The position numbers and the translations under genes were made by a program. Of a stretch of 46,705 nt of DNA, positions 8,891-43,680 are shown piece after piece. Origin of the DNA: a virus. Numbering within the stretch: the first letter of the stretch is position 1; each line of letters begins with the position of its first letter. The stretch is from the IMG/VR virus record IMGVR_UViG_3300027749_000180, positions 1-46,705 of that record; one strand, 5' to 3'. The notes under the pieces are model-generated. The model saw only the letters and a program-made list of their open reading frames with translations. It did no database searches and was not told where the DNA came from.

Positions 8891-8923
8891 AACCCCGCTA
8901 GGGTAACTTAGCGGGGTTTTTTT
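8891..8923 (+). terminator. Intrinsic terminator between the two arms
   Basis: A ten-base perfect stem pairs AACCCCGCTA (8891-8900) with TAGCGGGGTT (8909-8918) around an eight-base loop and is followed by a run of T. This ends + strand transcription. The minus-strand gene stops at 8922-8924, so the same stem lies directly behind it and may also stop the late transcript, although the T-run in that direction is poor. Confidence 0.88.
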
Positions 8924-11900
8924 ACGAGTTGTCGTCCAACACACCGCGCAAACGTTTGTCGATGTACAGGCCGTGTTCTGTTTGCGCTGATTTAGTCATA
9001 CGCTCTTTAATTGACGTGGTCAAACTCTTTGCAGGTATCCACACGCTAGGGTGTTTGGTATTAAACTTTTCAATGCGCTCGTAGGCTTTCTCCAAAGTAT
9101 CTGAGTCGTTTGCCATAAAAGCAATCCCATACAAGTTCAGCAGGTTCTGGCGTTCCTTTAAGACTGCTTGCTCTTGCCCTTTAACCGTAATGTTTCTGAA
9201 TTGAATTTCAGCTACATCAGCGGGCCGCAAACCAATAGATTGCATCAGCAAAGCAAACGAACCCACATCTTCAACCAGCGAATCACCACGCAAAGTGTTT
9301 ACGCCTTCGTTGGCATAGCGGGCGGCGACCAGTGGGTTTTTGATAAACGCGGGTGAGATTTTTTCAATGGCCCGGTCAGCGTGCCCGGTGTTCCAAAGGT
9401 TGTAGGCATCGGTTGCGTTGATAGCCAAACCGACTGTCGGGCCTAGCAAACTAACAAGCTGTTCTTGCAAGGCACTGGATGCGTCTAAGTTTTTACGGGA
9501 ATCTTGAAACCACATGTCGTCGAGCTTGGTACGACTGGCTAAATCCACGCCCGCCATATTGCCCACGCCGCGTGTGAGTAGCGTACCAGCGTTCTTGCCA
9601 AACGTATTCGCAGCCCACTCCATAAATTCCAATTCAAAGTCAAACGGCTTTTCGTCGTCATCGTCTTTCAGACCGTTAACCACCGCGTTCATAATCATTG
9701 CAACGGTAGAAAAACCCCATAACCCAGTTACACCGGAGAATATTCCCGCCATACCCATCGTCCCGACAAACCGCGCCCGTGCTTCACGGCGGTCTTCAAC
9801 AGTCATACCTTTTGACATGTTAATAAAGTTGTGAGCCAAGAAAAATGTCATCTGCTGCGGGAATTGTTTAAATTGCAACACCACCCGAGCAACTGGGTTC
9901 TGCATATAACGCGGTTTGTTTGCAGACGAGTAGTCGAACATTGAGCGTTGTGTGGAGTCCTTTGCAATCTCAATTGCTTCGTTGAACGCAACAGTCTGGT
10001 CTTTGTAGTCTTTGCGCTGTGCCATAGCCGCACGGAACGCAGACATTGCCATCACCTCACGGTTAAATCGCTCAGCGTTATGGAACAACGAAGACATCAA
10101 CTCCATTGCGCGATTACGCACACCACCGTAGCTATCTGTGGGTGCAGCGGCCAAACCAGATTGGTCGTACGCAGCAGTAATATCAATTACACCGTCAGCT
10201 ACAAACCGATCGTAAGCGGCTTTGTCTACATCGTTCAACTCACCGGAACGGCTAAGCGATGGGAAGTCTACGCGGTTATCACGAATACGTTTGCCCCGTT
10301 CAACATCAAAGCCCGTAGCCATTACCTGCCCCGCCGCTTGCCTCATTTGTCCTAGCGCGTCAAGTGTTGCTTGGGTGTAAGACAGTTTAGGGTTTGCGCG
10401 AACGTTTTGTCCAACCAACGTAGGCAAGCCAATAATCATGCCGCCCAGCACGTTAACGATTGCCGAAGCGGGCGCGGTCAAATACCAAACAAACCCGATG
10501 TTGGACAGGAGCGAAGGTATTGTGCCCACATCTGTTGGGTTGAGCATCAACTTTAAACGCCGTTCCATTTCGGTAACATAGTCGCTCAGCTCTGTGTTCT
10601 CACGAGTTAACTTGGGAGTTGGTTGTTTACCGGCTTCAGTCCGATCTTTAAGTTGCATACGCGCAGCTTGGATAGCTGCAAACAAATCTGGCGCGTGTTC
10701 AAACCGGGCCATTTGATAAGCCATGTGGAATGACGACGATGCAAAGTTACGGAGCGCATCTTCCGAATAGCCCGCCACATTGTTGCGGTGCATAAATTGG
10801 CTGCGAAAACTATGCTCTGGTTGGTTAGACAGGAAGTTCTGGTAGATGCTATCTTTGAGTAATTGTTTCTGTTCAGCAACATTACCGTTGGTTACGGTAG
10901 AGTCGTCGATCGCTTTGAAGGTGGCTTTCAAAAACTCGGATTGCTTGGCGTGCAAGTCCATCTGTTGTTTGTACTCGGAGCCGTACTGAACTTCCATATC
11001 GGGGTCAAGCTTTAAACGCTCGGCCATGTGCATATCCCGCTGACCTTCGGACTCAAACATGTAGTATTCACGCGCCGAACCTTTGCCGACTTGATACCAG
11101 AAACGCCCGTGGCGCATCAATGGGAAGTACGGCCCCTTGCGTTTGTTCTTTTCAAACTCATCGCGGATATGCGTGGCAGTCCCTTCAGACACGCCAAGCT
11201 CATCTTGCATAAATTTAATGCGGTCTTCCATGACCGCTTTGTACTCTTCATATCGTTTGTCGTAAAAGTCACGGGCTTTTGCATAAATTGCTTTGGCAGA
11301 ACTATCAAGCCCGCGCCATTCTTTCATCAATTCAGGATGAGCTTGTTGTTGGCTTAAAGTGGCGCTATCAGGATGCACTTCTGCAATTGTGGCGGCGTGC
11401 ATAACACGGGCCAGACGACGGGACATATCCGGGTTGGAAGACTGCATGCGTTCCCACAACTTAAGAACATCGCTGGACTCTTTCAGAATACTGTTTTTGC
11501 GGGAGAGAAATGCTTCTGTTGTGGCGATGAACCGGCCAACTTGTGGAATACGTTTGCGCACCAAATCATCAATCTGGCGTAGCGTGAGCGCACCCAACAA
11601 CGCTGGGCGTATGTTGGCTTTGGCACTGCTGTACGCAATTGGGAATGTTCCCTTTACGTCGTTCCAATTCTTTGATTGAAATAGTTTTTGAATGGCTGTT
11701 TTTGAGTTGGCCAAGCCGGGCGGTAAAGGTCTAGTAAGAGCGGGCGCGGCGGCTGACATAGCCTTTGGCCCGGTAGTCTCGGTTGCAACATCAAATGAAA
11801 TAGGGCCGCTCATCATGATGTCGGTGGCGTTCATCACCTCAACCATTGCGTTACTCTCTGTTTCGGACGTAGCGCCAAACAACTTTTTGACAGCGGTTGT

Positions 11901-14900
11901 GAACTCGTTCCAAATAGATATTGGCGCAGCCTTGTAGCGGATAGCGCGAAGTAACGCCTGCAACTCAGGGTTAGTCATTGCCTCAGAGACAAACTCGTGC
12001 AGGTCTTGGATGTTGCTAATGTTTATCCCGTCACGCGACAGGATACCTTTTGAGTAGTTGTATATCTCGTTCAAGCGGTTATAAGCGTCGAGCCGCGCAC
12101 CTTGCAAAGACTTGGGGTTGTCAATCAAGCGTGATGTGGCAGCGTGCAAGACTTCGTGCAAGAACAAGTGATTGGTCAGGTAACCCTGACGCATCGTAAT
12201 CTTGTTAGTGCTTGGGTCGTACTTACCCAGCCAGCCGTATTCTTTGTTCAACAGCGCAACAGTCTCGTTAAGAATTTGCCGCTGCGAAAGATTTTCAATA
12301 TTGTCTTCCAACTTAGCAATGGCTTCTTTTAAATCAAACAGATTGTTAGACTTCAGCCCTTTGAGGATTGCACCCTGTTTGTCTTTAGGGAACCCTGTTG
12401 CCACCATATCGGCCAGCGCACTTAGTTGTGCGTCAAGGGTATCCTTTACAGCGGGGTTGTTTGACAACGACACCATCTCGTTTTGGCCGATGATGTCGGT
12501 CTTGGCGTCAACGTCCGACTCTAACAAACGTTTTGCAAGCGCGGAGTAGTATGCGTTCTTGGGCGCAGCAGCCAGAATTTTAAGCGCACCCTTGGTGTCG
12601 CCCTTGTCAAGCAAGCGCATGATGTCTGGATGTTGCAACTCCGTGAGCTTCTGCACGGTCGATAAGTTCTTACCAACTCGTTGCTCTTCTGTAAGCTGTT
12701 TAACAGGCGGCGCTTTTGGAATTTTTACACCTGTGGTCTTTTCAACCTTCTGGCGTTGCTCTTCAGCGTACTTGTCTAAAGACGCTTGGTACTTGGTAAT
12801 GGCCGCATCAAACTTTTCTTCTTCTCGCAAATTGTTGCGATAGTCCTCAGTCATGTTGTTGAGCACATCAACAGTATCTTGGTTTAAATTCTGCTCAATC
12901 CATTCTTTAAACTGGACAGCATACTTGCCGCCTTCGTTTACGTAGATTGCATTGGCCCGGCCAACACCGGCTTCGTGCATTGCAATGTCGTATGCCAGCG
13001 CAGACAGCACATCCCCAAAGTTCTTGCGGTTGGGGTTTGTGATGTAGCTACGTGCAGCGGCCATGCCTTCGGTGACGCTACCCCGTGCATCAATCGCGCT
13101 CTTTAAAAAGTTCCAAGCCGAACGCAACTTGTTGTCAGCAATCACGTACCGTTTGGATTCGTTACTTGTCATTGGCCTGCGGGCTTTGCCTTCGGGCGAT
13201 GGCGCACGCTCAACTGTTTTGCGTGTAACGGTTGTGGCTTCGCTTACATACGGCAGCTTGCCAAACGGAATCTTTACACCGCCAGCTTCTGGGGCATTGT
13301 TTGTTTGAAACTCTTTTAACTCGTCGTTAAACTGCTCCATTCCACGACGAGTTGTGAGGTCTGGGAGTCCCGCATTCTCAAGAATACGGCTCTGTGAGCG
13401 ATTGCCGGGGTTGCGCAAATCTCCAATCAACTGCGACAGCGCAGCTTGCCCGCCCACACGGCGGGCTAAGTACTTAAGCGCCTTCTGCATACCGGGCGTT
13501 GTTGTTTCGCCGGGCTTAGCAATGTCGTACTCAACCAACAAATCACGACCCGTTTGTTTCAGGGCGTTGTGCTTTGTCTTTTCGCTAGGTGTGTTTGCAG
13601 CAGGTTTGATTGCGTCAAAAAACGCGCCGATCGTGCCCGCTTCTTCAGTATTAGCAATGTGCTCAATATCTTCTTTGGGGGCTTCTTGCTTTTCGTTAAC
13701 CCTGTCCCGCAAAGCCTGACGTTCGGCCTCAAGCGCGGCTTGCTCGTCGGTCATTGCGGATTCGTCTACTGGCTCGTACATAACTTCATCAAAGTATGTA
13801 TCAAGCTCATTTGGCTCGGTGCGTTTGACAGGTTGTTTAGGCGCTTGCTTTTCTGCAACGGGCGTAGTCAGCAAACTTGGCTGCACTGGCGGCGTTATCT
13901 TTGGCGCTTCAACTTTTTCTTTTTTCTGACGCGCTTCAATTTCTGCAGACAACTCCCTCGCCCGTTCGTTGGCCAATTCCTTTTCGGTCTTGGCAAACAC
14001 ATCCTCCATGCTCTCGGCGGGCGGGCCTTCTTCCAGCGGCTTGTTAAACAAGCTACCCTGCATTGCTTTGGGCTGGCCCCTAAGACGTTCTACTTCTGCA
14101 ATCGACGCATCAATTGCGGCCATCTGGCTCTGGACAAATTTAGCAGATACGGCTTCAGGGTTCTTAGCTGCTTCGGGCCGTGACATCTTAAACATCTCGG
14201 CGCGGTTGATGGCCCAAGCTGCGTCGTGTTCGCCTTTTGCAGCGGCGTCTAATACTTTCTGGCGGCGGTCTTCAAGCAACTGTACTGCCGCATCGTGATC
14301 CCCGCCCGCCCGTGCAAGGGCAAGAGTTGCGCCGTTGACAGCGGTCTTATTGCCAAACAAGTTGCCTTGCATGGCGTTGGGCTGGCCGATAGTAGTTCCT
14401 ACACCACGAAGTATTTCCGTAGCGTCAAACGTAGGATTTTTTAACGTCTCGTAATGTGCTGATATTTTTTTATAGTCGTCCTTGGCTCGAACGTTTTCAA
14501 CAAGCCCCGGATCGCCCGTGTACTTAACAATTTCTTTGGCGTTAGCATCCACAAGAGAATTGAGGTCTGCGGATAACCGCTTCATCATTTGTATTTGCCC
14601 CGGTGTTGGACGGGGCTCGTTCTGCAACTTTGCTAGTTCGCTACGAATGTTCTCGTAGTTTTCTTTAAAGTCAGTCAGTGCACCGGGTTGGCTTGTCGTT
14701 CTATTGACAATGCCTGCAACATTCTGTCCAGTAGAAACCACTCCATCTGCCCCAGCCCCTCCAGCTCCTGCGGCGGTGAGTCCTGTATCGGGCTTGCCAG
14801 CCACGCTAGTCCCAACTCCACCTGTTGGAGTGATAGGTTGTTCAACATTGGGTTCTCCTTCAAGGTCTTTTTTGATCCAGTCCGGTAAGGTTTCGGTTTC

Positions 14901-15977
14901 TGGCACGGGCGGAGCTTCTGGGGCTGCTTTACGTTTGCCAGCAAGTGCGCCGGTTATGCCGCCCATACCACCCGCACCGACCGTGGCCAAACCAGCGGTC
15001 TCGCCAACGCCTTCCAGCAAGCTGCGGTCCATGCCAGCTTGGCGGGCTGCAACGTTCTGTGCAATTTTACCGCCTACTTCCTCGATGTTCTCACCGGGGA
15101 TTTCTTTGATAGCGCCAGTCAAGCCACCAACGATGCGACCAGCGCCCGTACGTTCGCCAGCCAATGCGCGTTCCATCGCGCCCGCGCCGGGGAGGTATTT
15201 GTTGGCAAACAAAGACAGAGCATAGCCCGTTGCGCCAGCGGCACGGGCAAGGTTAATAGTCTCAGCAGCGGCTTCTTCCGAAGACATTTTCTTTTCTTCG
15301 GTAAGGTATTTGTAGACCTCATCGTATGTACCAGCGCCAATGTCTGCACCTTGCTGCACCGCACCAGTTTGAATAGCGGCGTTTGCGCCTGACTTGATAG
15401 CGGCTTTTTGCGCAACCTTTTCAGCGGCTTCTTTGGAGATGTTACGGGCAGCGGCTTTGGCCAGTACGTTGCCAGACGTAATCGCGGCAGTGCCCCCACC
15501 TGTGATAAGGGCGGGGATTAGTTGGGGTGCTTGCTCTGCAAGGAACGAGAAGAACAGCGCGGGGTCAGAAACAGTTTGGCCAACGGCGGTCTTGAACGCC
15601 TGCCACTGTCCTGTTTTTTCTGCTTCCTTGATAGCTTGAGAGCGGCGCTCTTCGCGTTCTTGCAACCCGACAGACTTCATTTCGTTGCCATATTTTTCAA
15701 TGGCCTCACCCATACCTAGCGTACCGGTCTTTGAGAAGTCGCCCGTGGCCAATCCATAAAGTTGACCGGGAAGCTGCACAAGAGAGCCAACACCGGAAAC
15801 CACGCCCGCGCCAATATCTTTGGCGGCTTCACCAAAAGTACGTTCGGTTGGGGCGGGTGCAGGCGCGGCTTTCTGGCTACCCATGTGGGTTGAGTAAGCC
15901 CACTGCCACGCTGTATTCTCATCTGGCGCATCGACTTCGTATTTTGCGCCCTGAACGTCTACAGCAAACTTAGCCAT
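8922..15977 (-). CDS. Giant ejection-type internal virion protein, 2351 aa
   Basis: This is the largest gene, more than 7 kb, and the last of the late arm. The N-terminus (VDVQGAKYEVDAPDENTAW) resembles a short module found at the start of many phage tail or injection proteins. Ala/Gly hydrophobic segments follow, then long Glu/Lys/Ala-rich coiled stretches. A zinc-protease-like HEVLH lies at residues 1274-1278 in LFLHEVLHAATSRL. Towards the C-terminus WYLTAPASAIVNVLGG and PVARVVLQFKQFPQQM recall the PLxRFG region of large polyvalent phage proteins. Such proteins are packed in the virion and enter the host with DNA, like T7 gp16 in role. Its position after three other ejection-type genes supports this. 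A glycosidase domain was not seen. Confidence 0.8.
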   Translation of the reverse strand: MAKFAVDVQGAKYEVDAPDENTAWQWAYSTHMGSQKAAPAPAPTERTFGEAAKDIGAGVVSGVGSLVQLPGQLYGLATGDFSKTGTLGMGEAIEKYGNEMKSVGLQEREERRSQAIKEAEKTGQWQAFKTAVGQTVSDPALFFSFLAEQAPQLIPALITGGGTAAITSGNVLAKAAARNISKEAAEKVAQKAAIKSGANAAIQTGAVQQGADIGAGTYDEVYKYLTEEKKMSSEEAAAETINLARAAGATGYALSLFANKYLPGAGAMERALAGERTGAGRIVGGLTGAIKEIPGENIEEVGGKIAQNVAARQAGMDRSLLEGVGETAGLATVGAGGMGGITGALAGKRKAAPEAPPVPETETLPDWIKKDLEGEPNVEQPITPTGGVGTSVAGKPDTGLTAAGAGGAGADGVVSTGQNVAGIVNRTTSQPGALTDFKENYENIRSELAKLQNEPRPTPGQIQMMKRLSADLNSLVDANAKEIVKYTGDPGLVENVRAKDDYKKISAHYETLKNPTFDATEILRGVGTTIGQPNAMQGNLFGNKTAVNGATLALARAGGDHDAAVQLLEDRRQKVLDAAAKGEHDAAWAINRAEMFKMSRPEAAKNPEAVSAKFVQSQMAAIDASIAEVERLRGQPKAMQGSLFNKPLEEGPPAESMEDVFAKTEKELANERARELSAEIEARQKKEKVEAPKITPPVQPSLLTTPVAEKQAPKQPVKRTEPNELDTYFDEVMYEPVDESAMTDEQAALEAERQALRDRVNEKQEAPKEDIEHIANTEEAGTIGAFFDAIKPAANTPSEKTKHNALKQTGRDLLVEYDIAKPGETTTPGMQKALKYLARRVGGQAALSQLIGDLRNPGNRSQSRILENAGLPDLTTRRGMEQFNDELKEFQTNNAPEAGGVKIPFGKLPYVSEATTVTRKTVERAPSPEGKARRPMTSNESKRYVIADNKLRSAWNFLKSAIDARGSVTEGMAAARSYITNPNRKNFGDVLSALAYDIAMHEAGVGRANAIYVNEGGKYAVQFKEWIEQNLNQDTVDVLNNMTEDYRNNLREEEKFDAAITKYQASLDKYAEEQRQKVEKTTGVKIPKAPPVKQLTEEQRVGKNLSTVQKLTELQHPDIMRLLDKGDTKGALKILAAAPKNAYYSALAKRLLESDVDAKTDIIGQNEMVSLSNNPAVKDTLDAQLSALADMVATGFPKDKQGAILKGLKSNNLFDLKEAIAKLEDNIENLSQRQILNETVALLNKEYGWLGKYDPSTNKITMRQGYLTNHLFLHEVLHAATSRLIDNPKSLQGARLDAYNRLNEIYNYSKGILSRDGINISNIQDLHEFVSEAMTNPELQALLRAIRYKAAPISIWNEFTTAVKKLFGATSETESNAMVEVMNATDIMMSGPISFDVATETTGPKAMSAAAPALTRPLPPGLANSKTAIQKLFQSKNWNDVKGTFPIAYSSAKANIRPALLGALTLRQIDDLVRKRIPQVGRFIATTEAFLSRKNSILKESSDVLKLWERMQSSNPDMSRRLARVMHAATIAEVHPDSATLSQQQAHPELMKEWRGLDSSAKAIYAKARDFYDKRYEEYKAVMEDRIKFMQDELGVSEGTATHIRDEFEKNKRKGPYFPLMRHGRFWYQVGKGSAREYYMFESEGQRDMHMAERLKLDPDMEVQYGSEYKQQMDLHAKQSEFLKATFKAIDDSTVTNGNVAEQKQLLKDSIYQNFLSNQPEHSFRSQFMHRNNVAGYSEDALRNFASSSFHMAYQMARFEHAPDLFAAIQAARMQLKDRTEAGKQPTPKLTRENTELSDYVTEMERRLKLMLNPTDVGTIPSLLSNIGFVWYLTAPASAIVNVLGGMIIGLPTLVGQNVRANPKLSYTQATLDALGQMRQAAGQVMATGFDVERGKRIRDNRVDFPSLSRSGELNDVDKAAYDRFVADGVIDITAAYDQSGLAAAPTDSYGGVRNRAMELMSSLFHNAERFNREVMAMSAFRAAMAQRKDYKDQTVAFNEAIEIAKDSTQRSMFDYSSANKPRYMQNPVARVVLQFKQFPQQMTFFLAHNFINMSKGMTVEDRREARARFVGTMGMAGIFSGVTGLWGFSTVAMIMNAVVNGLKDDDDEKPFDFELEFMEWAANTFGKNAGTLLTRGVGNMAGVDLASRTKLDDMWFQDSRKNLDASSALQEQLVSLLGPTVGLAINATDAYNLWNTGHADRAIEKISPAFIKNPLVAARYANEGVNTLRGDSLVEDVGSFALLMQSIGLRPADVAEIQFRNITVKGQEQAVLKERQNLLNLYGIAFMANDSDTLEKAYERIEKFNTKHPSVWIPAKSLTTSIKERMTKSAQTEHGLYIDKRLRGVLDDNS

Positions 15978-33786: not shown

Positions 33787-34436
33787 GACACTGGAATCCT
33801 GACTTGACCGTCACGGTACGCGTCCATGCGTTGCTTGCCATCACCCAAGTTCTTGAGCAGTGCAATTGATTGAACGTAACGTTCGTTGTACAGCTTGACC
33901 ATATCTGGCTCACCCTTGATGTAGGTGATCGCTTCGCACATGGTTCCGTACAACAACGCTGAATCAAAATTATCACCAAGCCATGTCTGGCCTGCGGTAA
34001 CGATAGATTCTGGATAGTAGTAGTAATGCAATTCGGCGCTGTACGTAATACTTGGGGTTGGGCCAACCATAAACGACAGCTCATTTACATTAGAGCTTTG
34101 TGGGCCAAAGATTGCGTAGTGCTTAGGCTTGCCGGTAGTCGCTGGGTTTGGATACGCTTCACGCATGAAGTTAACATCCTTGTTTAGCAAGTACAAATAC
34201 TCGCCACCGCCCACAGGAAACAAGGCCAATGAATACACAGAAAGAAAATCATCAGGGCAAGACAAATACTTGTTGTTTGCGCTGATTGTGCCCGTCACGT
34301 TTTTACGCAAATTAGCAAGCTGAACAGAATTGTATATACGCTGTTCTGCTTGCTTAATGAACGTGTTCATGTCTACCGTGGGAAACGTGTTCTCACAGTA
34401 ATCACTCACCAAGATGACGAGTTCGTTGTATGTCAT
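33783..34436 (-). CDS. Head-tail adaptor-like protein, 217 aa
   Basis: MTYNELVILVSDYCENTFPT followed by DMNTFIKQAEQRIYNSVQLA is the classic first helix pair of adaptor proteins that form a ring under the portal in short-tailed phages (SU10-like by memory). The middle has CPDDFLSVYSLALFPVGGGEYLYLLNKDVNFMREAYPNPA in pieces, a pattern typical of the family, and the C-terminus ends in helices. The length is as expected. It is joined by ATGA overlaps on both sides. Confidence 0.75.
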   Translation of the reverse strand: MTYNELVILVSDYCENTFPTVDMNTFIKQAEQRIYNSVQLANLRKNVTGTISANNKYLSCPDDFLSVYSLALFPVGGGEYLYLLNKDVNFMREAYPNPATTGKPKHYAIFGPQSSNVNELSFMVGPTPSITYSAELHYYYYPESIVTAGQTWLGDNFDSALLYGTMCEAITYIKGEPDMVKLYNERYVQSIALLKNLGDGKQRMDAYRDGQVRIPVS

Positions 34437-34699
34437 GCCATCGGACCCCGAGCCATCAGACCTTTAGTCGCTGCGCCAGTGCCACGGATTTTGATGCCGC
34501 TGGTCTTGACAGGCTCATCGCCCGCCGACTTGCTCTCAGCGCCAACACTGACGTCCAGCGTGTCAAGTTTGCTGCGGTTTGGGCCTTTGCCGGGGTTTGT
34601 ATCCATTGTGACGGCCTTGCCGTTCATGGTGTGGGGCTTGGCATAAGTGCTGGCTTGGCCAACTTCTTTGCCCATCATTTTTTTGCTAAATGTAGCCAT
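34433..34699 (-). CDS. Small basic protein, 88 aa
   Basis: The product is Lys/Gly/Ser/Thr-rich, with MATFSKKMMGKEVGQASTYA at the start and the C-terminal sequence GIKIRGTGAATKGLMARGPM. From memory, short basic proteins with an RGTGAATKGxxARGP-like end occur next to head and tail genes of many aquatic phages. No folded domain is evident and it is likely disordered. It may be a minor capsid or DNA-condensing component, by inference. Confidence 0.6.
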   Translation of the reverse strand: MATFSKKMMGKEVGQASTYAKPHTMNGKAVTMDTNPGKGPNRSKLDTLDVSVGAESKSAGDEPVKTSGIKIRGTGAATKGLMARGPMA

Positions 34700-34701
34700 G
34701 A

Positions 34702-34890
34702 TTAGCCTCGTTTCTGTGCGGCAATTTTGGCCAAGTTACGGCCCATTGCCTTCATGTTGGCGTTGGTTTTTCCCTTGCCTTTGCCCATGCCGCCCATCAT
34801 TTCTTTTTGCATGGGGCCGCTGTTACCCAAATTTTTGCCTTCTGTTTTGCCTTTTTTGGCAATGCCATCTGCTGCACGTTTGAATGTCAT
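34702..34890 (-). CDS. Small basic RADG-type protein, 62 aa
   Basis: The product is strongly basic and Gly/Met-rich. Residues 4-19 (KRAADGIAKKGKTEGK) match the C-terminal RADGIAQRGKTKG of the 134-aa protein encoded at 37446-37850. The rest has MMGGMGKGKGKTNANMKAMG. The likely character is disordered and nucleic-acid or capsid binding, which is inferred from composition only. It precedes the 88-aa basic gene. Confidence 0.6.
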   Translation of the reverse strand: MTFKRAADGIAKKGKTEGKNLGNSGPMQKEMMGGMGKGKGKTNANMKAMGRNLAKIAAQKRG

Positions 34891-34899
34891 GATTAACTC

Positions 34900-35289
34900 C
34901 TATGAAACGGTAACCGTTACTGTACCAACAAATGTCGTTCCCACCAAGTAATTTGGGGTTAGACCCGCATCAAAACCGCTGGAGCCGCCCACTGGCCTCC
35001 AGCCCCATTGAATATCTCTCGACCCGCCAGACAAATTGCCGGATATGTTCACGCCTGAAGTCACATACGTTGTGTCCCTACGTGGGTTGCGCAACGCCTG
35101 CGGATCATCTACCGGAAATGTTCCAAGCATCAATTGTGGCTGATCCGGGTCCCAACATTCAGGGCAAACCAAAAGCTGGTACTTGCGCTGCTTAATAATC
35201 TCTTCTTTAAGCCGCTTCAGTTTAAACTGCTGGCCGCAACGATCACATTCTGCAATCGCTATCTTGCCAGATGCAAAACGATTACCCAT
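34900..35289 (-). CDS. Zinc-ribbon small virion-like protein, 129 aa
   Basis: Two CxxC pairs (CDRCGQQF near residue 15 and VCPECWD near residue 42) form a zinc ribbon. DPDQPQLMLGTFPVDDPQAL and NPRRDTTY follow, then a Gly-rich segment ending in beta strands (TTFVGTVTVTVS). The order recalls short proteins next to adaptor genes in aquatic phages. It is likely structural, but a DNA-binding role is possible. Its start shares a base with the stop of the preceding gene (TAATG). Confidence 0.65.
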   Translation of the reverse strand: MGNRFASGKIAIAECDRCGQQFKLKRLKEEIIKQRKYQLLVCPECWDPDQPQLMLGTFPVDDPQALRNPRRDTTYVTSGVNISGNLSGGSRDIQWGWRPVGGSSGFDAGLTPNYLVGTTFVGTVTVTVS

Positions 35290-36215
35290 TACGTGCCACC
35301 AATAAACATTTGACGCGGGACGAAACGAACCGCAGCTTTTTCCCTGTCTTCTCCAGCAGCCAGTTCAAATGTTTCATCGTAAATCTGTTTGAGCATTTGG
35401 ATGCGAGGCATTAACTCAGGGGTTTTGATTGCAATGTGATACGCCAAACCAGCGACAACACATGGCAAGAACCTAAAATTCATGTCTGCTGTTTCAGCAC
35501 CAGCGCCAGCATCCTGCACTCTGCGCAGTCTCCAGTAAACAAATTGATATGTCGTGGAATTGTCGGGCGTCGGCCATACTGTCACGGCTGGAAGTTGGGG
35601 AACAAACACAGCCGTAGCTGCTGTATGCGTGGTTGCAGTGGTGTTGTTCTGCCCGCGAAACACGCCACCAAGGACGTTGCCCGTGATGTAAGTGTAGTAA
35701 ATGTCTTCAGCATCCAAGCGAATAAAACCAGAACCCGCTAGTCCAACCACCGTGTCAAGCGTGATCGTGGTGTCTGTTGAGCTAATGGTTGATGCAAGCG
35801 TAGAGCTTGTAGGATTGACTTCACCAGATAGCCGCTGAATCCATACTTGAATCGGTCGTGCCTGCTGTAACTTGTTTGGGATGGTTGCATAGGTAGAAAC
35901 ACTGATACGTGTGATGGTTAAATCAGCTTGCGTAGACGCGGTGTTTGACCCTGTGCGAATCACATGCTCCAGCAAATCAATTGTGTTTGTTGGCAGTGCA
36001 TATGTTGCCAAGCCGGGCACCAAGTTGATGAAGCCTTGCTCCATCGTCCACATGTTAATGCCCTTGTTCTGCCACTCAATGGTCATCAAGTTCATCGACC
36101 GACGGGCAGTCCGCAGATCATAGCCTGAACGCATCTCCCGGCCCGCACGCTCCCACGCTTCCTCGGCAATCTCCGTGAAGTCCATGTTAAAGAGGGTTGA
36201 GCCGGTAGTGGTCAT
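35289..36215 (-). CDS. Tail adaptor-like protein with a beta insert, 308 aa
   Basis: The N-terminal helices (FTEIAEEAWERAGREMRSGY, then ARRSMNLMTIEWQNKGINMW) and the C-terminal helices (FLPCVVAGLAYHIAIKTPEL, then IQMLKQIYDETFELA) are of a tail-adaptor or tail tubular A-like type. Between them a beta-rich insert of about 65 residues (TLDTVVGLAGSGFIRLDAED, then GVFRGQNNTTATTH) resembles modules seen in other phage tail proteins. It probably joins the portal-adaptor ring to the tail nozzle. The start overlaps the previous gene as ATGA. Confidence 0.7.
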   Translation of the reverse strand: MTTTGSTLFNMDFTEIAEEAWERAGREMRSGYDLRTARRSMNLMTIEWQNKGINMWTMEQGFINLVPGLATYALPTNTIDLLEHVIRTGSNTASTQADLTITRISVSTYATIPNKLQQARPIQVWIQRLSGEVNPTSSTLASTISSTDTTITLDTVVGLAGSGFIRLDAEDIYYTYITGNVLGGVFRGQNNTTATTHTAATAVFVPQLPAVTVWPTPDNSTTYQFVYWRLRRVQDAGAGAETADMNFRFLPCVVAGLAYHIAIKTPELMPRIQMLKQIYDETFELAAGEDREKAAVRFVPRQMFIGGT

Positions 36216-36388
36216 TTCATGCCTTTGAGGGTTTCAGCCAAACGTGCGCGTTGACCCATTTTGCCGGGCTTCTTTGCTGCTGCGGCAAGTTTTTTGGCGG
36301 GAATTGTTTTACCCTCTTTAATGCCCAACTCTTTACGCAATGCGCCGGGTTTTTTGATTGCGTTTTGGATAAAATTTTTGGTAGCCAT
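36212..36388 (-). CDS. Small basic protein, 58 aa
   Basis: This complete frame fills the gap between two genes, with an ATGA overlap into the adaptor gene. It encodes MATKNFIQNAIKKPGALRKE, KTIPAKKLAAAAKKPGKMGQ and RARLAETLKGMK. The protein is rich in Lys and Ala and could bind DNA. From memory, a GKxGxRARLAETLK ending recurs in short phage proteins of unknown role. Confidence 0.65.
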   Translation of the reverse strand: MATKNFIQNAIKKPGALRKELGIKEGKTIPAKKLAAAAKKPGKMGQRARLAETLKGMK

Positions 36389-36621
36389 TATCGAAACCCC
36401 GCTGTTTTCTTTGCAATTGTTTTTGGCTGCGCAACAAACTGTTTTCCAGCCGCCTTGCCCGCACGTTTGGCTTTTGTAGTCGCCGCATATTCTGCGGAGG
36501 ATAAAGACTTAATCGCCGCTTCGGGCAAATACCTTTCCCCCGTCTTGCTCGACGGTTTGCCAGACTTGGTACGCCACTTCTGGTCGCCCCAGTCTTTAAG
36601 GGATTGCTGCGGCGCTTTCAT
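36388..36621 (-). CDS. Basic protein with KSGKPSxxTGERYLPE motif, 77 aa
   Basis: Residues 8-35 read LKDWGDQKWRTKSGKPSSKT then GERYLPEA. This W-x-T-K-S-G-K-P-S-x-x-T-G-E-R-Y-L-P-E block is a sequence type that I recall from phages and from some large eukaryotic viruses, near DUF5872-like domains. The C-terminal half is Lys/Ala-rich. The role is unknown. It starts with ACTGATATG directly after the stop of the next gene up. Confidence 0.65.
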   Translation of the reverse strand: MKAPQQSLKDWGDQKWRTKSGKPSSKTGERYLPEAAIKSLSSAEYAATTKAKRAGKAAGKQFVAQPKTIAKKTAGFR

Positions 36622-36622
36622 A

Positions 36623-36898
36623 TCAGTCCCGGTATCCGCCGCCTGCGGCTTTATATTTCTTGGCTACAAGTTGCGCTTTACGGGCCGACCATTGCCCTGC
36701 TCCGGTGCCTTGAGTCGCCGCAGATTTTACCTGAGACACAATCCGCTTGCGAAGACTAGGCTTGGTGTAATTGCCAGCCGCGTTAACTTTGCCGCCTTCA
36801 GCATACTGCGTAAAGTCGGTGTCGTCCCGCCGAGCTTTTTTAACGCCCTTGGGCATCTTGGAGGGGGCAATTGCCCCCATACCGCGACTGGCTAACAT
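36623..36898 (-). CDS. Small basic protein with QWSARKAQL motif, 91 aa
   Basis: I chose the ATG at 36898 because it makes the TAATG overlap that is common here; a GTG seven codons upstream is also open. The product has YAEGGKVNAAGNYTKPSLRK in the middle and TGAGQWSARKAQLVAKKY plus GGGYRD at its end, a tail I associate with DUF5872-like proteins. It is probably disordered and basic, with an EGGKV motif shared with other virion proteins of this window. Confidence 0.65.
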   Translation of the reverse strand: MLASRGMGAIAPSKMPKGVKKARRDDTDFTQYAEGGKVNAAGNYTKPSLRKRIVSQVKSAATQGTGAGQWSARKAQLVAKKYKAAGGGYRD

Positions 36899-37263
36899 TA
36901 CATCTTCCCGCCGCCACACATGGCTATCATTGTGCCTTTGGTGTGACCCTTGGACACGCAGCCATCTGCACGAGTTACGCCGCCTTTGGACAGCTTCAAA
37001 GTTGTACCTTTGCCGCCTTTGTGTTCTTGGGCATCATGCTGCTTAAACGCTTTCATAATCATGGCTTTGTCTTGGGCCTTGTCCATTTTCATGTCTTCTT
37101 TCATATCGCTTTTCATATTGCCACCTTTTGAAAATTTGCGGCCCTTGTCCGCAGTTGAAAAGTCTTTGCCCACGGATTGTGGGACGCCTACCTTCTTGGC
37201 AAAGGCGGGGCTATGGGCCACCGCCTCCATAAAGTTATGTTGTTTTTTACTCGTGCTGGGCAT
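36898..37263 (-). CDS. Small basic protein with SKKQHNFM start and RADG tail, 121 aa
   Basis: I chose the ATG at 37263 because MPSTSKKQHNFMEAVAHSPA is a start I recall in many small phage proteins (followed by FAKKVGVPQSVGKDF). The middle is Met/Lys/Asp-rich and perhaps helical. The C-terminus has KLSKGGVTRADGCVSKGHTK and a Cys-Gly-rich end. A GGGGG run may help ribosome binding. No activity is known. It overlaps the upstream holin-like gene by 17 bases. Confidence 0.7.
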   Translation of the reverse strand: MPSTSKKQHNFMEAVAHSPAFAKKVGVPQSVGKDFSTADKGRKFSKGGNMKSDMKEDMKMDKAQDKAMIMKAFKQHDAQEHKGGKGTTLKLSKGGVTRADGCVSKGHTKGTMIAMCGGGKM

Positions 37264-37444
37264 TTGAGCCCCCTGTTCGGCCAGTCCACCGTTTAACGGT
37301 TTCAGTTTCCCAGATGCGGATGGCTGTCCACACAATCGTAAATATTGCTGCGACTGATGGAAGCATATCTGCCAATGTTCCTATTACGGTAATAATGGAT
37401 AGACCATCAACCACGGATTTTACGGTTTCGGTATGGTCGGTCAT
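37247..37444 (-). CDS. Small membrane protein, holin-like, 65 aa
   Basis: I chose the ATG at 37444, with the TGATATG junction after the upstream stop. The product (MTDHTETVKSVVDGLSIITV, then DMLPSVAAIFTIVWTAIRIW) has two hydrophobic segments and a basic tail (TVKRWTGRTG). Very similar short proteins are annotated as holins in other phages, to my memory. It lies far from the endolysin gene, so it may be a second lysis or membrane protein. Confidence 0.65.
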   Translation of the reverse strand: MTDHTETVKSVVDGLSIITVIGTLADMLPSVAAIFTIVWTAIRIWETETVKRWTGRTGGSNAQHE

Positions 37445-37445
37445 A

Positions 37446-37850
37446 TCAGCACATCTTTCCTTTGGTTTTACCACGCTGGGCTATGCCATCAGCGCGGCGT
37501 GAGGCGGAAACTGTGCCGCCTTTTGCTTTTTTCTCAACATCTGCGTCAGGTAAATCAACTGGTTTTCCATACTCTGCTCTATTGCGAGAAGTTTGCCCAG
37601 TGCCGCTGGTCGTACCTTTTGGATACTGGTCAACAATGCGCTGCCCCAACGCTTCTTTTTCTTCTTCTTTCATGTTGAGTATTTTGTTGGTGGCGTCATA
37701 CTCGTCTTTTTTGTACTTGTCGTCACCAATCATTTTTCCTAAACGTTGCGACGCCGTACCCTTGGCAACTTCATCACGCAGTTTATCTCTGCGTGCGTCC
37801 GATTCCTTGGTGGATTTATTCCAACGAGAAGGTTCAACGTATGTAGCCAT
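37446..37850 (-). CDS. Basic protein with C-terminal RADG motif, 134 aa
   Basis: The N-terminal half is charged and helical (KESDARRDKLRDEVAKGTAS, then EEEKEALGQRIVDQYPKG). The C-terminus is KKAKGGTVSASRRADGIAQR followed by GKTKGKMC. The RADGIA-GKTKG ending is the best example of the motif that recurs in the 62-aa and 121-aa products nearby. A single terminal cysteine is notable. The role is unknown. Confidence 0.65.
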   Translation of the reverse strand: MATYVEPSRWNKSTKESDARRDKLRDEVAKGTASQRLGKMIGDDKYKKDEYDATNKILNMKEEEKEALGQRIVDQYPKGTTSGTGQTSRNRAEYGKPVDLPDADVEKKAKGGTVSASRRADGIAQRGKTKGKMC

Positions 37851-37858
37851 AATTTACC

Positions 37859-38122
37859 TCAACACTTCCATCTTGCAAGAGCAGCAGCCTTGCGGGTAGG
37901 CTTGCCTTTTTCGTCCTTCATTGGACCGGGCATGCCCGACATGCGGGCACAGAATGAATCTTTACGTGGGCCACCTTGGGGCTGGGGAGCCTTCAGGTTA
38001 CTGCCGGTAGCGGCGTTGTACTTAGCCCGACCCTTGGCGGTCAAACCAGCACCCTTGGACACGGGCAATTTCTCGCCACGGCCTACAGCCAGTGATGGGC
38101 CTTTTTTCTTTGTTGCCATCAT
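37859..38122 (-). CDS. DUF6321-like small basic protein, 87 aa
   Basis: The order KGAGLTAKGRAKYNAATGSN, LKAPQPQGGPRKDSFCARMS and GPMKDEKGKPTRKAAALARW matches a widespread family that I recall as DUF6321, found in phages and large viruses. It is very basic and has two conserved cysteines (FCARM and the last residue). A DNA-packaging or virion role is conceivable, but unproven. Its ATGA end overlaps the glycosyltransferase gene. Confidence 0.75.
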   Translation of the reverse strand: MMATKKKGPSLAVGRGEKLPVSKGAGLTAKGRAKYNAATGSNLKAPQPQGGPRKDSFCARMSGMPGPMKDEKGKPTRKAAALARWKC

Positions 38123-40068: not shown

Positions 40069-40980
40069 TTAGGACGAACCGGGCGAACCGAAGATGCCCA
40101 ATGGGTCAGACACGCCGAAGCTATAACGCTCGCGGGCTTTGTAACGAACGTTACCTGTGTCAAAGTCGCCGTCCATGCTGTTTTGCAGCGGAGTACGGAC
40201 AAAGTGCTTCAAGCCGTTTGGCACGTCAGTCAACAGGAACCAGCCGTTGGTGTCTGTCAAGAAGTGGTTAACGGTGTAGCCTTCAGGAATCGAGCCGTTG
40301 TTCTTCAAAGCGTTGATGTCGTTGTCGGTTGTACCAACGCGCAACTCGGTTTCGAGCAGGCGGGTAGCCACGAACATCAATGATGGAGGAACGATCAACT
40401 TCTTAGGCTTAGCAGCGATCAACAGACCACGTTCATCAGTCCAAGCAGCGATTTGAATAACAGCGTTTTCCAACGATGTTTCGTTCAAGTCAGCGCCAGT
40501 CGAAGGACGGTTGCTGTTAGTACCACCAGACACCAGAGGGTGAGCTGTAGAGCACAGAACCACGCCGTCGCCGTATGTAGGGCCACCGGTAAAGGCGTTG
40601 TTCAACACGTAAGCAGCTTTAACTTGCTTGGTGTAAGCCATACCACGGGCCAAAGCCTTGGTGTAGCGGCTGGACAACGAGTCATACAAGTTGTCTTCCA
40701 CTGCTTCTTCCGTGATGGAAAAACCCATTGCGATGGTTTCGTGGGTGTAACGAGCAGTCCATGCTTCCTGTGCGTTGTCATAAGCGATGGCAGAGCCTTC
40801 GTTCTTAACAGGTGCAGCAGAGAAACCAGACAGTTTCGTTTCTTCTTCAAAGCTACGCTCAGATGTCTCTGTTTCGTAGATTTCTTTGTGCTCTTCGCCG
40901 TATTTAGCGTACTCCAAGCCGAACAAAGCGTTCAGACCGGGGAGCAATTCCTTGAGCAGTTGTGCGCGTGAAATAGCCAT
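40069..40980 (-). CDS. Major capsid protein, 303 aa
   Basis: The protein has an HK97-fold-like order: an N-terminal helical arm (AQLLKELLPGLNALFGLEYA), a long loop (YETETSERSFEEETKLSGFS), a spine helix (NLYDSLSSRYTKALARGMAY), VVLCSTAHPL in the loop region and a C-terminal beta domain (PKKLIVPPSLMFVATRLLET). This most resembles the Mu gpT-type head proteins, to my memory. It is the main shell subunit. The start has a strong AAGGAG and the gene lies between the decoration-like gene and the capsid terminator, as expected for high expression. Confidence 0.85.
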   Translation of the reverse strand: MAISRAQLLKELLPGLNALFGLEYAKYGEEHKEIYETETSERSFEEETKLSGFSAAPVKNEGSAIAYDNAQEAWTARYTHETIAMGFSITEEAVEDNLYDSLSSRYTKALARGMAYTKQVKAAYVLNNAFTGGPTYGDGVVLCSTAHPLVSGGTNSNRPSTGADLNETSLENAVIQIAAWTDERGLLIAAKPKKLIVPPSLMFVATRLLETELRVGTTDNDINALKNNGSIPEGYTVNHFLTDTNGWFLLTDVPNGLKHFVRTPLQNSMDGDFDTGNVRYKARERYSFGVSDPLGIFGSPGSS

Positions 40981-43281: not shown

Positions 43282-43680
43282 TTATGGGCGCTGGATGCCG
43301 CGTGGGTCCTGTACAACTGCTTGTACAGAATCGTCGTTGATAAGACGCCACTCAGTGCCGTGGATTTTCATCCGCGTACCGGTGTTAGGACGGGTGATGA
43401 TGAAGTCGCCGACTTTGCAAGACGGCCCAGACGGGAACCGCTTTTTGTCTTTGAACGCATCAGGCCCGATCTTGGCCACAAACAACACGGGGGAGAGGAG
43501 CTCCTCGTGCAGCATGGTTTGGCTGGCTTTGAGCAAGCCGCCTTCATATTCCTCTTCTGCTTGGGGGAGCATACACAGGATATGGTAAGTCGCTGGATCA
43601 GGAACCTGCTTGGCTTTTTCCTCAACGGGTTTGTTGAGAATGCCAGACAAATCTACTGCCTGCACATCGAAGTTAGTCAT
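43282..43680 (-). CDS. GroES-like co-chaperonin, 132 aa
   Basis: Residues about 30-125 follow the GroES barrel: ATYHILCMLPQAEEEY as the first strand, EGGLLKAS as the mobile loop that touches GroEL, SPVLFVAKIGPDAF, CKVGDFIITRPNTG and a last strand. A Lys/Glu N-terminus precedes the core. Phages use such proteins (as T4 gp31) to let the host GroEL fold the capsid subunit. Its place between the portal and scaffold-like genes fits. Length is a little more than that of cellular GroES (97 aa). Confidence 0.8.
   Translation of the reverse strand: MTNFDVQAVDLSGILNKPVEEKAKQVPDPATYHILCMLPQAEEEYEGGLLKASQTMLHEELLSPVLFVAKIGPDAFKDKKRFPSGPSCKVGDFIITRPNTGTRMKIHGTEWRLINDDSVQAVVQDPRGIQRP

Follow-up and report, generated by a model that had tools for sequence, protein, structure and literature searches.

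Bacteriophage T4 is the textbook case of one short peptide loading diverse proteins into a phage head. Its internal proteins form a highly diverse set that has only a capsid targeting sequence (CTS) in common (PMC3012670). The CTS, a propeptide at the N-terminus, is processed as the head matures (PMC5694885), and some of the internal proteins counter host defence after injection (PMC9391042). Here we describe a peptide, hereafter the RADG tag, carried by small basic proteins encoded among the late genes of a 46.7-kb viral record (IMG/VR record IMGVR_UViG_3300027749_000180; the whole stretch of 46,705 nucleotides is called the window). Like the CTS of T4 IPI-IPIII, the RADG tag is one short conserved peptide on otherwise diverse small phage proteins of a variable locus. 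Unlike the CTS, it is C-terminal in 347 of 553 tagged open reading frames (ORFs), with an N-terminal class of 25, and the two sequences are unrelated. Encapsulins offer a second comparison. Their cargo-loading peptide is short and C-terminal, it follows a flexible glycine-rich linker, and the shell that it addresses shares the HK97 fold with phage capsids. The tag of the window's clade likewise stands at the C-terminus after a GG linker (338 of 347 C-terminal proteins), but encapsulins are cellular nanocompartments, not phages, and the reader of the tag is here only putative. We know of no sequence relation between the encapsulin peptides and the tag. As a sequence phenomenon the tag is real and strong, and it is undescribed as far as the literature searched shows. 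With moderate confidence, and from sequence comparison, we read it as a probable virion-docking or cargo tag on swappable small proteins.

The motif R-x-(x)-D-G-[IC]-[AV]-x-[RK]-G-[KH]-T-x-G was found in three products of the window, which, like all late genes including those of the interval studied here, are encoded on the minus strand. Given the pooled composition, about 2e-7 matches would be expected by chance in 920 residues. The 134-aa (amino acid) protein (37446..37850) shows the typical form, with the motif at residues 118-131 and the C-terminal tag SASRRADGIAQRGKTKGKMC-COOH set on a lineage-specific body; its last 23 codons and stop (37446..37517) encode the tag and part of the KGG linker. 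The 121-aa protein (36898..37263, from an ATG start) is made of an N-terminal 43-aa domain, a middle KAFKQHDAQEHKGGKGT module and a sub-terminal tag variant, TRADGCVSKGHTKGTMIAMCGGGKM, with the motif at residues 98-110 and GKT changed to GHT. The 62-aa protein (34702..34890), encoded after the adaptor, has the motif at residues 5-18, in an N-terminal form, FKRAADGIAKKGKTEGKNLG, that constitutes a separate class. Moreover, the 88-aa protein (34433..34699) ends in a second, related C-terminal tag, RGTGAATKGLMARGPMA. An earlier note made from the DNA sequence had reported the motif in these three products, and the residue positions confirmed the places it gave; the KSGKPS-GERYLP, QWSARKAQL and RGTGAATKG peptides that it listed in the other proteins are all present as well.

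Searching IMG/VR with the 134-aa protein yielded 243 relatives, of which 80 were kept. Most of these align over the last 25-35 residues only, and their contigs usually have 2 to 4 adjacent genes with the motif. Among 171 distinct proteins in these contigs, the motif ends exactly three residues before the C-terminus in 112, the consensus tag being KKGGxVSASxRADG[IC]AxRGKT[KR]G[KR][MIF][CVI]-COOH. Once the tag was removed, the bodies of these 112 proteins fell into 46 groups. The full set of 345 contigs comprised the 553 distinct tagged ORFs, 346 of them with the exact C-terminal form, and the bodies of the latter gave 133 clusters (91 singletons). Three classes of tag were distinguished: strictly C-terminal (347), 5-38 residues from the end (180), often fused to a SKKQHNFM domain, and N-terminal on a protein of ~62 aa (25). 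The window holds one protein of each class. Because the regular expression used for the motif fixes the glycines, the threonine and the spacing, the conservation of these elements is partly by construction. Positions that were free or partly free are still conserved, namely the K of GKT (97%), the D (97%), the R at -16 (89%) and the SAS segment. Scans of nearly 80 of the tagged bodies yielded nothing credible in Pfam or PHROG. Many tagged proteins (L059, L071, L256, L340 and others) also open with MKKKxKR[FY]xxGG, a short basic stretch that may be a further signal, at the N-terminus.

The C-terminal tag behaves as an independent module whose protein sequence is under selection. Tags share 74% identity when carried by homologous bodies (themselves 56% identical) and 70% when carried by unrelated ones, which indicates that the tag is conserved independently of the body to which it is attached. 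At invariant residues synonymous codon diversity is nearly full; for instance, the threonine at -6 is encoded by ACC in 148 cases, ACT in 123, ACA in 49 and ACG in 26. Such scrambling of synonymous codons showed that selection acts on the peptide, and it excluded a DNA-level signal or a recent repeat. Within a contig, tags on unrelated bodies were 72.8% alike, as compared with 66.5% between contigs (0 of 200 permutations), and the synonymous excess within a contig was small (46.9% versus 43.3%, against 37.8% versus 37.2% for the body-codon control). This within-contig likeness would fit a reader common to all tags of a genome, together with some recombination.

Since sampling by the tag could itself create the pattern seen at the locus, contigs were also drawn by their major capsid protein (MCP), with at least 6 kb downstream (n=30). 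The motif was present in 28 of the 30, and all 79 occurrences lay on the MCP strand, downstream of MCP. The remaining two have endings that are degenerate versions of the tag, GIESKGKTKCKMR (L113) and RGAGCAKKGVRPCKMM (L164). Tagged ORFs accounted for 64 of 328 between MCP and adaptor and for none of the 258 upstream of MCP; beyond the adaptor they were 7 of 244, all of the N-terminal class. We then compared the locus in the 25 MCP-sampled contigs with 8 kb downstream. All 25 had MCP (40069..40980 in the window, median identity 89%), which anchors the variable block on the left, the 308-aa SU10-type adaptor (35289..36215, PF24175 match), which bounds it on the right, the 129-aa protein with paired cysteines (34900..35289, zinc-ribbon-like), also a block boundary, and a 217-aa adaptor. 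The distance from MCP to adaptor ranged from 1.9 to 7.8 kb. A DUF6321 gene was found in 22 contigs, the SKKQHNFM domain and the QWSARKAQL gene in 21 each, and a homologue of the glycosyltransferase-like gene in 11. The body of the 134-aa protein occurred in none of the 25 and is homologous in only two other contig families. The locus is a fixed frame with hypervariable filling, a hot spot of recombination where the turnover of genes is high. A conserved gene neighbourhood in related phages, on which the earlier note had staked its idea, was therefore found.

The tag is confined to a single capsid lineage, and cellular genomes hardly ever contain it. When a DNA pattern specifying the C-terminal tag was searched for, at least 120 stretches matched, among them 76 new loci. 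The clade's structural markers accompanied 73 of these 76, two others had its small genes, and one was a 1.7-kb fragment. Across 84,980 cellular genomes there were 4 tag loci, all on metagenome-derived contigs. A tagged 613-aa acyltransferase-like protein, an in-frame fusion at the contig end of a Patulibacter metagenome-assembled genome (L090:6584-8425), looks like a chimeric assembly. Judged by MCP, the nearest isolates are Pag-Yong1, MinM2 and Pra-JY27 (73%), DSL-LC04, HTVC023P/027P, CRP-901/902 and Caulobacter phages. The Planktothrix phage Pag-Yong1, with a capsid 73% identical, a GroES-annotated gene and a portal adaptor, resembles the window and encodes, shortly after a minor capsid gene, a 308-aa protein (UMO75986) ending in GRDGCAKRGRTKGRFI. 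It differs in that one tagged protein was seen, with a GRT variant and a function without annotation. A tblastn search of isolates with the tag alone found nothing, yet Pag-Yong1 carries the tag, and this search was too insensitive. Within the regions examined, the strict tag was not found in HTVC023P, CRP-902, DSL-LC04 or Caulobacter RW; HTVC023P has a related tail, RGGGAAVRGMGFKGVF. As for the second tail, RGxGAATKG, which occupies the clade's 88-aa slot, it lies at a distance of exactly 8 residues from the C-terminus in 161 of the 170 cases, and a wider pattern, RGxGAAxRG, matched 7 contigs. Intermediate forms suggest that this tail and the RADG tag are related.

How might such a tag work? 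On the docking reading, the C-terminal tag would let a single constant component of the head under assembly, or of the head-tail junction, recruit changing small proteins, mostly disordered and basic, which would thus be taken into the virion. The genes would form a swappable cassette between the capsid and adaptor genes, usually of one to four tagged members, whose bodies would be gained and lost by recombination while selection on the protein kept the tag. Once inside the head, basic cargo would lie alongside the DNA and exit together with it when the phage infects, in the manner of T4 internal proteins. Binding of the tag to a head component, packaging of the proteins and their role after entry are the steps that we infer. 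One of the two ideas of the earlier note, modular tags recognised by one assembly factor, comes close to this and is the better supported, since the tag is an independent C-terminal module, found on unrelated bodies, in one capsid lineage and in a late gene block. The head-type neighbourhoods of two companion domains, DUF6321 and the 43-aa domain (see below), speak in the same sense.

Several observations weigh on the other side. Co-divergence singled out no reader, the lead passing between MCP, the neighbour upstream of it and the 129-aa protein according to the subset. No prohead protease was recognised among the scanned genes of the window, a record that may be incomplete, so that T4-style processing is not evident. 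The altered, sub-terminal tag of the 121-aa protein and the N-terminal one of the 62-aa protein show that strict C-terminality is not universal. Last, the tag may act by charge alone. A broader form of the docking reading, which we put forward tentatively as a possibility, is that the whole MCP-to-adaptor interval would be a general cargo cassette, in which any tagged small protein would be head-loaded and injected, and the turnover of bodies would reflect an arms race with host defence.

Charge is at the heart of the main rival, a DNA- or phosphate-binding tail, that is, a basic glycine-rich segment that would bind packaged DNA and neutralise or condense the genome, with no specific protein reader. 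The tag has a median net charge of +7, as compared with +4.5 for the bodies, the companion proteins have isoelectric points (pI) of 10-11, G-x4-G-K-T resembles a bare phosphate-binding loop, and lysines of T4 internal proteins touch DNA phosphates (PMC3012670). However, charge accounts neither for the conserved D, G and T and the SAS-R-A-D segment nor for the fixed distance to the C-terminus, GKT reads GHT in the window's 121-aa copy, and the tag is confined to one capsid lineage. We consider such a tail possible, if rather doubtful. The other idea of the earlier note, DNA-condensing or capsid-filling peptides, is likewise possible because the proteins are basic and disordered-looking, and is less supported than modular tags. 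A P-loop enzyme was also considered and rejected: the pattern G-x4-G-K-[ST] is present, but the 134-aa protein ends five residues after the threonine, there is no Pfam match to a nucleoside triphosphatase and no fold, the tag region of the 121-aa protein is predicted to be unstructured, and one copy has GHT.

Another role in the virion would be surface display, the tag anchoring variable disordered proteins outside the capsid or collar, for adhesion or shielding, possibly after their modification by the neighbouring glycosyltransferase-like protein. The bodies are indeed hypervariable and disorder-prone, and their genes come just after the capsid and cement-like genes, beside the glycosyltransferase-like gene. 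Nevertheless, the latter has a homologue in only 11 of the 25 contigs, the bodies are mostly basic (6% are acidic) and no decoration-protein family matched them. Surface display seems unlikely.

Somewhat less likely still is a C-terminus read in the infected cell, for instance by a phage co-chaperonin-like protein or a host factor, entry into the virion being then unnecessary. The same block does contain, upstream of its scaffold-like gene, a GroES-like gene (43282-43680; Cpn10 E=0.007, below cut-off), and related isolates have an annotated GroES at the same place. Against this, HTVC023P, CRP-902 and Caulobacter RW combine a GroES gene and a related capsid with no such tag, and tagged genes sit in the structural operon. 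Finally, a neutral tail with no common reader, a recombination module spread by gene shuffling, would suit a locus where recombination and gene turnover are so marked but is very improbable, being disfavoured by the codon data, in which amino acids appear conserved over scrambled synonymous sites, and by the 70% identity across unrelated bodies.

The late genes of the window run in the order portal, GroES-like gene, scaffold-like gene, MCP, two small genes, glycosyltransferase-like gene and the interval reported by the earlier note, followed by adaptors, fibre, lysis genes and very large proteins. Support for the glycosyltransferase assignment is weak (Pfam Anp1 E=6e-5, under the curated cut-off). 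One of the very large proteins, a 2351-aa polyvalent protein (8922-15977) with an LPD39 domain and a DarB-like antirestriction match, is likely an ejected protein. The earlier note had counted about eight small basic proteins in the interval, and eight basic ORFs were counted (pI 9.5-11.0): 87 aa (pI 10.7), 134 aa (9.5), 121 aa (9.9), 89 aa or 98 aa from a GTG start (10.6), 77 aa (10.5), 58 aa (11.0), 62 aa (10.9) and 88 aa (10.0). They do lie between adaptors and glycosyltransferase-like gene, as claimed, but not as one unbroken island, because the interval also contains a 75-aa ORF, the 129-aa protein and, in its middle, the 308-aa adaptor. The 75-aa protein (37247..37474) is neutral, has a hydrophobic stretch and overlaps the 134-aa gene; the 58-aa basic protein is encoded at 36212..36388. 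Nor do the eight make up one family. Paralogy was rejected, as there is no convincing similarity outside the motif and several members belong to separate known but uncharacterised phage families: DUF6321, phrog_16759 (phiKZ gp165.1, the 43-aa domain), phrog_14910 and phrog_17747.

The 87-aa protein (37859..38122), at the 5' end of the variable block, belongs to the uncharacterised family PF19846, DUF6321 (E=5.5e-23, 81.8 bits for a curated cut-off of 28.5). The window's member is untagged, whereas relatives include 13 tagged forms. In the T7-like phages S-TIP37 and HTVC168P the DUF6321 gene has the scaffold gene on one side and the capsid gene on the other; in S-RSM4 it is flanked by g16 and g17. 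The N-terminus of the 121-aa protein matches phrog_16759 (E=3.8e-21), with the conserved SKKQHNFM...QSVGKDF residues, and its first 43 residues are 77% identical to PHIKZ165.1 of phiKZ. PHIKZ165.1 is the domain alone (58 aa), to which the window's protein adds the middle module and the tag. Structure prediction gave three confident helices (predicted local distance difference test, pLDDT, 82-92 for residues 11-40); the rest, tag included, was of low confidence and unstructured except for one helix. Searches for folds in the PDB returned nothing significant, and these N-terminal helices were the only part confidently predicted. PHIKZ165.1 is encoded near the phiKZ structural head genes gp162-164, of which gp162 and gp163 are inner-body candidates (PMC5694885), and a separate study confirmed that gp163 is injected (PMC10449902). 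The gene for the 43-aa domain in Stenotrophomonas phage BUCT555 comes right after the terminase and a portal-sized gene and precedes the capsid gene. This domain (SKKQHNFM...VGVPQSVGKDF) occurs in the podovirus-like phage of the window, in the jumbo phage phiKZ and in many other jumbo phages (L082, L083, L084), an unusually strong conservation across unrelated phage types.

The 77-aa protein (36388..36621; KSGKPS-GERYLP, phrog_14910) and the 89-aa protein (36623..36892; QWSARKAQL...GGGY C-terminus, phrog_17747) are encoded side by side. Their homologues adjoin in HTVC035P, MEP402 and CRP-13, and in HMO-2011 both are in the same late block, ~2 kb apart, split by a monooxygenase-annotated gene and others. 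Adjacency of the two genes, seen in Pelagibacter, Roseobacter and Methylophilales phages, spans a number of marine lineages that differ in their capsids (L085-L088). Altogether, the neighbourhoods of the companion genes point to late or head functions. Neither DUF6321 nor gp165.1 was named in the literature searched, and the main text of the proteomics literature searched had no relevant protein.

If the broader, cargo-cassette form of the docking reading is true, the RADG tag would to our knowledge be without precedent in tailed phages as a C-terminal code that loads diverse cargo into the capsid, and it would be portable to other cargo. As a tagged isolate exists, the question is directly testable. 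Injected proteins would become predictable from sequence alone, since the tag marks well over a hundred otherwise unrecognisable families, in a group of abundant, mostly uncultured aquatic phages. Next to T4, it would then stand as a second, unrelated and C-terminal solution, and tagged, swappable virion cargo would be a general strategy.

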